A DNA stretch of 64,000 nucleotides from Thermococcus peptonophilus (GTDB lineage Archaea; Methanobacteriota_B; Thermococci; Thermococcales; Thermococcaceae), in assembly GCF_001592435.1 (NCBI RefSeq), contig NZ_CP014750.1:1426001-1490000 (forward strand), in the 5' to 3' direction. This document shows, piece after piece, positions 17,519 to 59,964 of this stretch. Numbering within the stretch: position 1 is the stretch's first letter; the number at the start of each line of letters is the position of its first letter. Below the pieces are notes generated by a model. That model worked only from the letters and a program-made list of their open reading frames with translations, was not told the DNA's origin and ran no database searches. The position numbers were made by a program, and so were the translations under genes.

Positions 17519-18129
17519 ATTCCCCTTCCATTTTCTAGCAAGCTTTTGAAAAAGCTTGACCAAAAATGTTCTCTTCTTTTTTGAACTTGTCCGTTGGTGG
17601 GCTTATGCACACTCAAAAAGCAACTTTGCGTGGGTTTACTCTCAAAATCTCGTTAATTGTGATTTCAGCTTTCTTTTTATTGCTCAAAGAGCGCTATACT
17701 GGTGGGAAAATCCTGTAAGTCTAGCAATTCGATAAATAAACCTACTCAAAAGCTAGCTTGTTAGAATTGTATACTAACTTTCAGCAATCCTTTGAGGACG
17801 CTTGAACGCTAGTGAGAGCGGCGCTGAAGCTTTTGAAAAAAGCTTCACCAAAAGTTTGTAGCTCTTCTTCGAGGTGGCTTTTATTCGGGATTTTTCACTG
17901 CTAGCGTGCTTGTTTTTGTAGTGAGAATATGTTTAGGGGGCTTCTTAGAAAGGTGTTTTCTTCTCTTTGACGCCCGAAGGCGTTGATTTTGAGTTAAACA
18001 CGTGTTAGCAGGATGAGTTTGGAAGTTCTCACTTTCAAGCACAACTACTCGATGAGAAAAATCACGTGAAATTGGCATTCTGGAAAAGAGCTACAAACCT
18101 TGATGAAACTTTGCCCAGCAAAGTTTCTA
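17519..18129. repeat. Non-coding hairpin-rich block A beside tRNA-Arg(GCG)
   Basis: 611 bp without a credible gene, AT-rich. It holds perfect inverted repeats: CAAGCTTTT/AAAAGCTTG (17539-17558), GAAGCTTTT/AAAAGCTTC (17826-17846), ACGCC/GGCGT around a CGAA loop (17970-17983; UUCG loop if read on the minus strand) and GAAACTTTGC/GCAAAGTTTC (18105-18127). The same motifs with similar flanks (GCTGAAGCTTTT, CAAAAGTTTG, TTTTCTTCT, GATGAAACTTT) recur in block B at 59296-59886. No coding or transposase remnant seen. A shared mobile element or a non-coding RNA gene are both possible. Confidence 0.6.
18105..18127 (-). repeat. tRNA-abutting 10-bp hairpin, copy 1
   Basis: GAAACTTTGC-cca-GCAAAGTTTC, a perfect 10-bp stem with a 3-nt loop. 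It lies 2 nt beyond the CCA of tRNA-Arg(GCG) on the minus strand and is followed by ATCAAGG. It is the same sequence family as 59298-59320 and 59861-59884. Confidence 0.75.
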
Positions 18130-18207
18130 TGGCGCCCCGGCGGGGATTTGAACCCCGGACCTCGAGGTCCGCAGCCTCGCGCCCTATCCAGACTAGGCCA
18201 CCGGGGC
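18130..18207 (-). tRNA. tRNA-Arg(GCG)
   Basis: 78 nt with encoded CCA on the minus strand. The acceptor GCCCCGG pairs with CCGGGGC, and the anticodon loop CTGCGGA reads GCG. Followed after 2 nt by the conserved hairpin of block A. Confidence 0.96.
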
Positions 18208-39660: not shown

Positions 39661-39718
39661 CTCGAACCTCGAGCGACTAGGCGGGGCGAACCCGCGGGAT
39701 GTTCCCGTAAGGGAGAAC
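39661..39718 (+). promoter_or_regulatory. Structured GC-rich leader of rpl15e
   Basis: Between the shared TATA area (CTTAAAAAC near 39647-39655) and the L15e ribosome site lie CTCGA/TCGAG (39661-39673), GCGGG-GCGAA-CCCGC (39681-39695, a GNRNA-type pentaloop) and GTTCCC-GTAA-GGGAGAAC (39701-39718, a GNRA tetraloop with one bulge). Such GC-rich consecutive hairpins in an otherwise AT-leaning intergenic gap suggest a functional RNA fold. Confidence 0.5.
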
Positions 39719-39743
39719 CACAAACAGGGAAGAGGTGAACGAG

Positions 39744-52291: not shown

Positions 52292-52696
52292 TTTGTATAT
52301 ATTCAGTCGTGGTATAAAAAGCTTTTGAACGGTAGTTTTCGACAAAAGACGATTTACTTGGGCGTAAAATAATCAATATCCAATTTTTGTCACTTTTTCA
52401 AATCTATCTTGACTCGTTATGTGGTTTTTAGACATCCCGACAATTTTTGAAACGGGCGGAAAAATCGTTTTAAACACGACTTCCCTATGGCCTGTTGCCC
52501 GATGATTGGAAAGAGAGTGAGCTGAGATGTGATGACCGACTTCTCGCTGAGGGCATTTCATCATTTTTATGAACTTTGGTGAACGTAAAAGTCCTTCAGT
52601 GTATAAAAATTTCTCGATGTACATCGCTTCTTTTGGCGAAATCCCCGAGAATTAGCCTTTATTCTTTTGGAAATTTAACTATTTAACTTTTTGTTC

Positions 52697-59207: not shown

Positions 59208-59295
59208 GCGGGGGTAGCCGAGCCTGGCCAAAGGCGCGGGATTTAGGGTCCCGTCCCGTAGGGGTTCCGGGGTTCAAATCCCCGCCCCCGCACCA
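59208..59295 (+). tRNA. tRNA-Leu(UAG)
   Basis: 88 nt with encoded CCA. Acceptor GCGGGGG/CCCCCGC, anticodon loop TTTAGGG reading UAG, class II variable arm. It differs from tRNA-Leu(CAG) at 3489-3576 at only one base, the wobble position of the anticodon. Followed after 2 nt by a conserved hairpin. Confidence 0.96.
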
Positions 59296-59297
59296 CA

Positions 59298-59320
59298 GAA
59301 ATTTTGCAGGGCAAAGTTTC
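59298..59320 (+). repeat. tRNA-abutting 10-bp hairpin, copy 2
   Basis: GAAATTTTGC-agg-GCAAAGTTTC, ten pairs with one T-G wobble and a 3-nt loop, 2 nt beyond the CCA of tRNA-Leu(UAG), followed by ATCAAAG. Confidence 0.75.
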
Positions 59321-59860
59321 ATCAAAGATGGAATGTCCGTTTTTAAACTGCCAACTTTTTCCAAAAGCTTCCTCGCGAGGTTTGATCAAGGCTTGGGGTT
59401 CTTTCTAAAATTGCTCTACTACGAGGATTTTCAAGATACACAAGCTAGCATTAGTGAATTCCCTAAGTTTCAGCCTGCTGAAAAGGAGTTTTCTCACTTT
59501 GACGCCCTATGGGCGTCGATTAAAAAGCAAACTCACAAAGAGAGAGCAAATTAAAAATAGAATTCACAACCCAAGACAGCATTCAAAAAGAAAATCCCCT
59601 CAAAGCTAGCTAGTTAAAAACGCACACTCTCTTCCGCCAGCGCTGAAGCTTTTAGAAAAAGCTTGAGCAAAAGTTTGAATGTCTTCGTGAGATTTGCTGA
59701 GAATTGGGGATTCTTCTAGCTCACGAGTGGGGTAATGGGGGTTTTCTTCTTTTTAACGCCCATTGGGCGTTATACTGCGAGTAAACCCCTGAAAACAGCC
59801 AATTGGGGTAGAGAATCACTGAAAACTCGGCAGTGTAAAAAAGGACATTCGCTCTTTGAT

Positions 59861-59884
59861 GAAACTTTTCGCCAGAAAAGTTTC
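59861..59884 (-). repeat. tRNA-abutting 10-bp hairpin, copy 3
   Basis: GAAACTTTTC-gcca-GAAAAGTTTC, perfect 10-bp stem with a 4-nt loop, 2 nt beyond the CCA of tRNA-Pro(UGG) on the minus strand, followed by ATCAAAG. Stem bases differ from copies 1 and 2 but pairing is kept. Confidence 0.75.
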
Positions 59885-59886
59885 TA

Positions 59887-59964
59887 TGGTGGGGCCGCCG
59901 GGATTTGAACCCGGGTCACGGGCTCCCAAAGCCCGCAGGATAGACCAAGCTACCCCACGGCCCC
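59887..59964 (-). tRNA. tRNA-Pro(UGG)
   Basis: 78 nt with encoded CCA on the minus strand. Acceptor GGGGCCG/CGGCCCC, anticodon loop TTTGGGA reading UGG. A TATA-like CTTAAG lies about 35 nt upstream of its 5' end. Confidence 0.96.

Follow-up and report, generated by a model that had tools for sequence, protein, structure and literature searches.

Related repeat families and rearrangements

REP and BIME sequences are dispersed intergenic palindromes of bacteria that often form composite arrays, are homogenised, and have been proposed to affect transcription ends and recombination. The Thermococcus modules described here are similar in that they are also dispersed intergenic palindromes in arrays and are homogenised between copies. 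They differ in being longer, with nested stems, in being fixed to tRNA 3' ends in one orientation, and in belonging to an archaeal genus. MITEs, including archaeal palindrome-ended elements derived from IS200/IS605, are likewise small and non-coding, have palindromic or inverted ends, and occur in many copies. Unlike MITEs, the Thermococcus modules have a tRNA anchor and a set orientation and share identity tracts that ignore the element ends, and no target duplication or parent element was found for them. Most comparisons below are between T. peptonophilus and a genome of 2,088,737 bp, G012, which we take to be that of T. kodakarensis KOD1.

Thermococcus genomes have few insertion sequences yet are shuffled, which has been called paradoxical, and their mode of shuffling is unlike that of Pyrococcus (PMC2718504). 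T. onnurineus and T. sp. 4557 differ by two inversions, one ending at tRNA-Leu/tRNA-Thr and the other at tRNA-Leu/tRNA-Gly (Cossu et al., 2017; PMC5495485). The integrase Int-pTN3 did not invert the Leu/Thr pair in vitro, the Leu and Thr sites have no common sequence, and the cause of the inversions was termed elusive (PMC5495485). The Int-pTN3 model and the present analysis deal with the same rearrangements, some of which have endpoints at tRNA genes. In that model the integrase acts on short common sequences (PMC5495485), whereas here a repeat family beside the tRNAs supplies the common sequence; the integrase and the repeat arrays can act together.

The sRk48/sRk52 small RNAs of Pyrococcus abyssi are also repetitive, hairpin-rich intergenic sequences of Thermococcales; each Pyrococcus has several copies and T. 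kodakarensis a single one (PMC3124441). They were considered as a candidate identity for the modules and set apart, from their published description, by copy number and distribution (about 51 modules in G012, none detected in the Pyrococcus-like genus g3). The literature found does not mention such a repeat family; most subscription journals were outside the search, and an earlier description is possible.

Two tRNA-anchored arrays in the 64-kb window

The window, i.e., the whole analysed stretch of 64,000 nucleotides from T. peptonophilus, contains two arrays. The original prediction had recognised one of them, block A, as part of a non-coding, hairpin-rich repeat family tied to tRNA genes. 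This was borne out, as the modules are located 3' of tRNAs. All four hairpins claimed were found (17539-17558, 17826-17846, 17970-17983, and 18105-18127), and no open reading frame of more than 65 amino acids lies within 17519-18130, in agreement with the claim that no gene explains the block. Block A (17538-18128) is composed of two different modules, type A and then type B2. This composition, the existence of at least four module types, the genus-wide copies, and the single orientation to the tRNA were absent from the prediction.

The type A module, with a variant right end, occupies 17538-17785 on the plus strand (nhmmer profile A, positions 2-251 of 280, 178 bits; alignment with 11 other T. 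peptonophilus copies) and contains a left hairpin, CAAGCTTTT/AAAAGCTTG, at 17539-17558. A 39-bp linker (17786-17824, plus strand) connects it to the next module and corresponds to the A right end in its long form, which occurs in G012 too (GCCATCC..GGACGCTTGAACG..GCGGCGC in the junction table). The type B2 module (17825-18128, plus strand; nhmmer profile B2, positions 3-309 of 310, 322 bits) abuts the 3' end of the array anchor tRNA-Arg(GCG) (18130-18207, minus strand; ARAGORN and Rfam) at a distance of 1-2 bp. Its left terminal hairpin, GAAGCTTTT-nnn-AAAAGCTTC, appears in the hairpin listing at 17826-17846. The left subterminal arm, GTAGCTCTT (17858-17866, plus strand), is the partner of 18087-18095, based on the sequence and on the B2 consensus pairs 34-268 to 41-261 in 28 sequences. 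A T-rich tract then leads into the central GC hairpin ACGCC-CGAA-GGCGT (17970-17983), both together spanning 17956-17983 on the plus strand, as seen in the sequence, the alignment, and the consensus fold. The right subterminal arm, AAGAGCTAC, was located from the sequence together with an A-run at 18084-18095 on the minus strand; in the reading direction of tRNA-Arg, this run is a T-run about 43 bp past the tRNA 3' end. The right terminal hairpin, GAAACTTTGC-cca-GCAAAGTTTC (18105-18127; pattern search, hairpin and junction listings), adjoins the tRNA.

In the second array, a complete B1 module at tRNA-Pro(TGG) continues into two partial modules, one C and one B1, that face tRNA-Leu(TAG). The left half is anchored by tRNA-Leu(TAG) (59208-59295, plus strand; ARAGORN), beside which lies the right end of the partial B1 module (59298-59359, minus strand; nhmmer profile B1, positions 182-244 of 246, 42 bits). 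The partial C module (59367-59617, minus strand; profile match) shows a 251-bp tract with 97% identity to a C module near genome position 1,528,700. A type A right-end remnant, GTTAAAAACGCACACTCTCTTCCGCCAGCGC, identified from the sequence at 59618-59643 on the plus strand, is fused where the two half-arrays meet. The complete B1 module follows at 59644-59885 on the plus strand (nhmmer profile B1, positions 2-245 of 246, 247 bits), next to its anchor tRNA-Pro(TGG) (59887-59964, minus strand; ARAGORN). Block A had been predicted to recur at 59.6-59.89 kb. The same series of hairpins is indeed present in the same orientation at 59644-59885, but it corresponds only to 17825-18128, because block A contains two different modules.

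Ordinary Rfam matches elsewhere in the window were the C/D-box RNA sR58 (52498-52552) and the eL15 ribosomal protein leader (39681-39724).

Module architecture and types

Alignment of the T. peptonophilus copies distinguishes four module types, A, B1, B2, and C, of approximately 240-310 bp, which are built on a common plan. From the left end to the middle, the plan comprises a complete left hairpin of the AAGCTTTT or AAACTTTGC type, an RTCAAARG motif, a subterminal arm, an inner arm, a T-rich tract, and a GC hairpin; from the middle to the right, the two matching arms are followed by a type-specific right end. The subterminal arms are type-specific yet complementary (GAATGTC/GACATTC in B1, GTAGCTC/GAGCTAC in B2, GTGGTTC/GAACCAC in C, and GTATGC/GCATAC in A). 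The predicted variation of stem sequence with retained pairing is seen in the alignments and consensus folds. Compensatory changes are also present in the alignment, as in the type A central hairpin, whose two forms, GCGCTC/GAGCGC and GTGCCC/GGGCAC, represent a double compensatory change (pairs TA22/CG14 and CG24/TA14).

A terminal inverted structure of the kind that defines MITEs was identified, with a hairpin at both ends, an RTCAAARG-related motif inward, and a subterminal inverted repeat, although the structure is imperfect in A. Where a tRNA adjoins, the right end forms a complete hairpin, and 1-3 bases separate it from the tRNA; beside another module, only the left half of the hairpin is present before the left hairpin of the next module. 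The junction table indicates that the joint for a given type pair is nearly identical in T. peptonophilus and G012. The palindrome GAAACTTT-N3-11-AAAGTTTC occurs 16 times in the T. peptonophilus genome versus 0 times for a reversed-pattern control, and this control has one match each in just four genomes among 94 genomes of the family. Chance is excluded as the origin of the palindrome recurrence. These palindromes are dispersed, intergenic, and often paired, like those of REP/BIME.

Anchoring to tRNA 3' ends and distribution

Copies were counted with nhmmer profiles of the four module types. A total of 35 modules in 18 arrays were retrieved from the T. peptonophilus genome and 51 modules in 21 arrays from G012. 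The arrays hold 1-4 modules arranged head-to-tail and starting at a tRNA 3' end. A tRNA 3' end called by ARAGORN lies within 60 bp of the array in 16 of the 18 T. peptonophilus arrays and 17 of the 21 in G012, and several others abut tRNA ends or fragments that ARAGORN did not call. The gap between array and tRNA is 0-9 bp in nearly all arrays, mostly 0-2 bp, and in some calls the module and the tRNA end overlap by 1 bp. The right end of the module faces the tRNA in 76 of the 77 scorable modules of the two genomes, and the same tRNA-anchored layout was found in 40 stretches from 12 other genomes. A search by hairpin pattern alone recovered 80 hairpins in named genomes; 61 of them have a tRNA 3' end no more than 1.5 kb away, compared to 33% for random points, and 13 more are cut by a contig end. 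All but one of these 61 (60) are downstream of the tRNA, and 31 share its strand at a distance of no more than 12 bp. A majority of the tRNA genes carry no array. The tRNA 3'-end identity is 0.73 with an array and 0.69 without (permutation P of 0.009 and 0.004), a modest effect.

Further copies outside T. peptonophilus, which the original prediction had set as its test, were found: 58 of the 61 genomes of the genus Thermococcus contain modules. None were detected in two nearly complete genomes, G022 and G060. Many copies are present in one genome of a second genus of the family. Genera g3 (which we infer to be Pyrococcus), g5, and g6 contain no exact hairpins and no similar DNA except for marginal matches in g5. 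A hairpin-only scan of 84,980 species returned 75 matching contigs, all from Thermococcus, Thermococcaceae, or Thermococci. Plasmid and phage DNA gave no module match, and the Rfam searches, at gathering and relaxed thresholds, gave only tRNA-related matches at the tRNA itself and unrelated RNAs.

Array turnover and sequence exchange

Array content varies between orthologous tRNAs. In the syntenic comparison proposed for block A, the tRNA-Arg(GCG) array is B2 + A in T. peptonophilus and B1 + C in G012. The tRNA-Lys(TTT) gene has C in T. peptonophilus versus B1, A, B2, B1 in G012, and tRNA-Arg(CCT) in T. peptonophilus is without the four modules of G012 and is followed by 330 bp of other sequence. 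Module copies are often merely 70-85% identical. Within each genome, tracts of 80-325 bp with 90-99% identity have their ends within modules, span joints, and extend into tRNA genes. From this continuity over joints and into tRNA genes, the arrays evidently exchange sequence by recombination. Such a pattern is characteristic of recombination or gene conversion, not of element-sized jumps.

The tRNA-Arg(TCG) and tRNA-Arg(CCG) genes are swapped between the two genomes with unchanged gene neighbours (1494697 and 1266819 in T. peptonophilus; 1240853 and 1499113 in G012), probably by conversion through tRNA and array. At tRNA-Val(CAC) of G012, 62.9-86.2 kb is taken up by what resembles an integrated provirus and includes an integrase-like gene. 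One end of this region has the array next to a 3' fragment of the tRNA, and the other end has the complete tRNA. Apparently the same provirus-like arrangement is present at tRNA-Arg(TCT) (~320 kb/499 kb), and at these two tRNAs the proviruses displace the pre-existing array. About 2.6 kb of extra DNA in T. peptonophilus (G000:C1, 255986-258632) lies between tRNA-Val(TAC) and an apparent tRNA 3' end that is followed by an array; this insert looks like a small integrated element.

Arrays at synteny breakpoints and inversion endpoints

Breakpoints were mapped using the tRNA loci and their flanks as anchors instead of a whole-genome alignment, and the counts of 16, 17, and 7 given here were tallied by reading flank placements. 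The two flanks are at different places in G012 for 7 of the 16 testable arrays versus 0 of the 17 array-less tRNAs (Fisher P 0.003). The seven breakpoint arrays are those of ArgTCT, ValGAC, ValCAC, LeuCAA, MetCAT, AlaCGC, and GlnTTG. The ProCGG and Asp/Trp arrays were left out of the count because their marker pieces have no match in G012, two of three such pieces being without one. Compared with G012, T. peptonophilus has a clean inversion at 361-467 kb whose ends lie in the arrays of tRNA-Arg(TCT) and tRNA-Val(GAC), and ValCAC, MetCAT, and LeuCAA have exchanged their flanks as a three-membered ring. A further 4-6 breaks are outside arrays or unplaced; the compared DNA comprised ~11 kb of arrays versus 1.4 Mb of other sequence. 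The Poisson estimate for the breaks presupposes that their rate is uniform.

Genomes G014 and G021 are presumably the published pair, T. onnurineus and T. sp. 4557. The published tRNAs were placed presumptively, by comparing locus-tag spacing with gene order, and the inversion ends then correspond to LeuCAA and the ProTGG-ThrGGT interval for one inversion, and to LeuTAG and GlyTCC for the other. Type A modules or remnants are located at endpoints of both inversions, the Leu/Thr pair included. Both strains carry them at LeuCAA and ProTGG; in addition, 4557 has them at LeuTAG and T. onnurineus at GlyTCC. The remnants at the published endpoints score 14-87 bits, and some are short (15-31 bits). 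In T. onnurineus, the two modules of the first inversion are mutually inverted. The exact 4557 order requires an additional small local flip of the Pro-A segment.

Repeat arrays offer an explanation for inversion endpoints at non-matching tRNA genes, and as breakpoint sites they could help to explain the fast shuffling of Thermococcus genomes. With its presence at seven mapped breakpoints and both published inversions, the family provides a concrete inversion substrate that is testable by T. kodakarensis genetics. Only stretches of at least 500 bp of identical DNA are reported to recombine homologously in T. kodakarensis (PMC5495485). Because copies of the modules often fall short of such identity, some events may need a low-specificity integrase.

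T-runs downstream of tRNA genes

A run of at least 4 T is located 42-53 bp after the tRNA in 27 of the 35 module-bearing tRNAs versus 3 of the 56 tRNAs without modules. In all types, this run always comes past the hairpin and the subterminal arm. Among 101 copies of A, B1, and C, 80 carry a mid-module run of at least 5 T in the opposite direction, where about a quarter would be expected, compared to only 8 of 30 copies of B2. Archaeal RNA polymerase terminates at T-runs, which makes a two-way terminator beside the tRNA plausible. Such a local role would be based on the hairpin and T-run downstream of the tRNA and, in A, B1, and C, on the opposite mid-module run. From these sequence features, the module probably terminates both transcription leaving the tRNA and antisense transcription entering it.

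Origin and spread of the modules

We favour, as a probable reading, a genus-wide family of non-coding modules just 3' of tRNAs that is spread and homogenised by recombination, with inversions between arrays and perhaps a terminator function for the tRNA. The modules would be spread and homogenised by ectopic homologous recombination or gene conversion, in exchanges anchored by the tRNA gene on one side and by resident modules on the other. Strand exchange starting in a tRNA or its module would copy the array to a new tRNA, in the same orientation and exactly 3', which the modestly higher 3'-end identity of array-bearing tRNAs would fit. With exchange anchored on the tRNA and the resident modules, no transposase would be needed to explain why position and orientation are fixed. 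Arrays at different tRNAs lie inverted to each other, so a crossover between arrays in inverse orientation would flip the chromosome segment between them. The recombinase may be RadA or a low-specificity integrase. No closely related genome pair showing the arrival of a single module was found, and recombination may not be the sole route of spread. A 'tRNA-associated mobile repeat' was the nearest of the readings originally offered, the movement seen in the sequences being inter-array recombination rather than transposition. We put forward more tentatively, as conceivable but not likely, that the arrays are the principal built-in chromosome-inversion substrate of Thermococcus, consisting of orientation-locked, tRNA-anchored cassettes, possibly with a dedicated recombinase, and giving a mode of shuffling distinct from that of Pyrococcus.

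The inverted terminal structures, the type-specific conserved ends, and the regular joints could also be those of MITE-like non-autonomous elements. A transposase or recombinase acting in trans would recognise the terminal hairpins and place each element either immediately 3' of a tRNA or at the hairpin of a module already there, always in one orientation, like Tn7 at its attachment site. The four types with common ends and different middles, the rule-like single position and orientation, and the varying module content among orthologous tRNAs are consistent with this. However, no target-site duplication was seen in the array ends and flanks inspected (none of which was a clean empty site), and no larger copy carrying a gene between its ends was found in T. 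peptonophilus or G012, all T. peptonophilus sites being short modules. The negative plasmid and phage searches also argue against such elements, as do the identity tracts, which stop inside modules and not at module ends, and the X-Y joints, which are constant per pair across species as if inherited as blocks. We regard MITE-like insertion as unlikely. Selection by the host, with rearrangement as a side effect, is a quite improbable account, in which the modules would be tRNA insulators or terminators, or chromosome-structure sites for docking of SMC or nucleoid proteins. It would fit the dyad symmetry retained while sequence varies between and within types, the constant distance of the T-run, and the occurrence in 58 of 61 genomes. 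The modules are dispensable, however, as more than half of the tRNAs are without an array, orthologous tRNAs differ, and no modules were detected in G022 and G060; the literature on SMC or TrmBL2 docking sites provided no link to tRNA repeats.

A structured non-coding RNA family processed from, or encoded beside, tRNA transcripts is suggested by the compensatory changes in the type A central hairpin, the nested stems in the consensus folds, and the GNRA-like loops on one strand in the tRNA-side hairpin of A. We consider this very improbable, since folding is comparable on both strands, Rfam gave no match, and the T-run 42-53 bp after the tRNA would halt sense transcription; the sections consulted in published transcriptome studies of T. 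kodakarensis and T. onnurineus also mention no such RNAs. Covariation was rejected as proof of an RNA, because any DNA palindrome keeps its pairing and both strands fold comparably. The long non-coding RNA of the original prediction accordingly found no support, with no promoter found either. Its decayed integrative element is not supported either: the modules have no coding remnant and the same non-coding plan in all copies, the far ends of arrays are without tRNA sequence, and no tRNA-fragment duplication surrounds the arrays. The tRNA fragments in G012 (62.9 kb and ~320 kb) mark provirus-like insertion beside an existing array. An integron-like cassette array does not fit either, the modules being non-coding and no recombinase gene accompanying the arrays examined, although trans-acting enzymes are possible.

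Module sites and sequences away from tRNA genes

At least one module site, conserved between genomes, is not at a tRNA; it is located upstream of a gene starting ATGGCCTGGCACGTC, with the right flank CTTTGCAAAAAAATT, in T. peptonophilus (G000:C1, 1406592-1406895), G012 (C1, 1349322-1349561), and L259 (4816-4844). A G/C-rich stretch, e.g., TGGGGGG-CCCCCCA-CACCCCCAG, borders the far ends of some arrays (T. peptonophilus 1024733 and 1406560; L322 3292).
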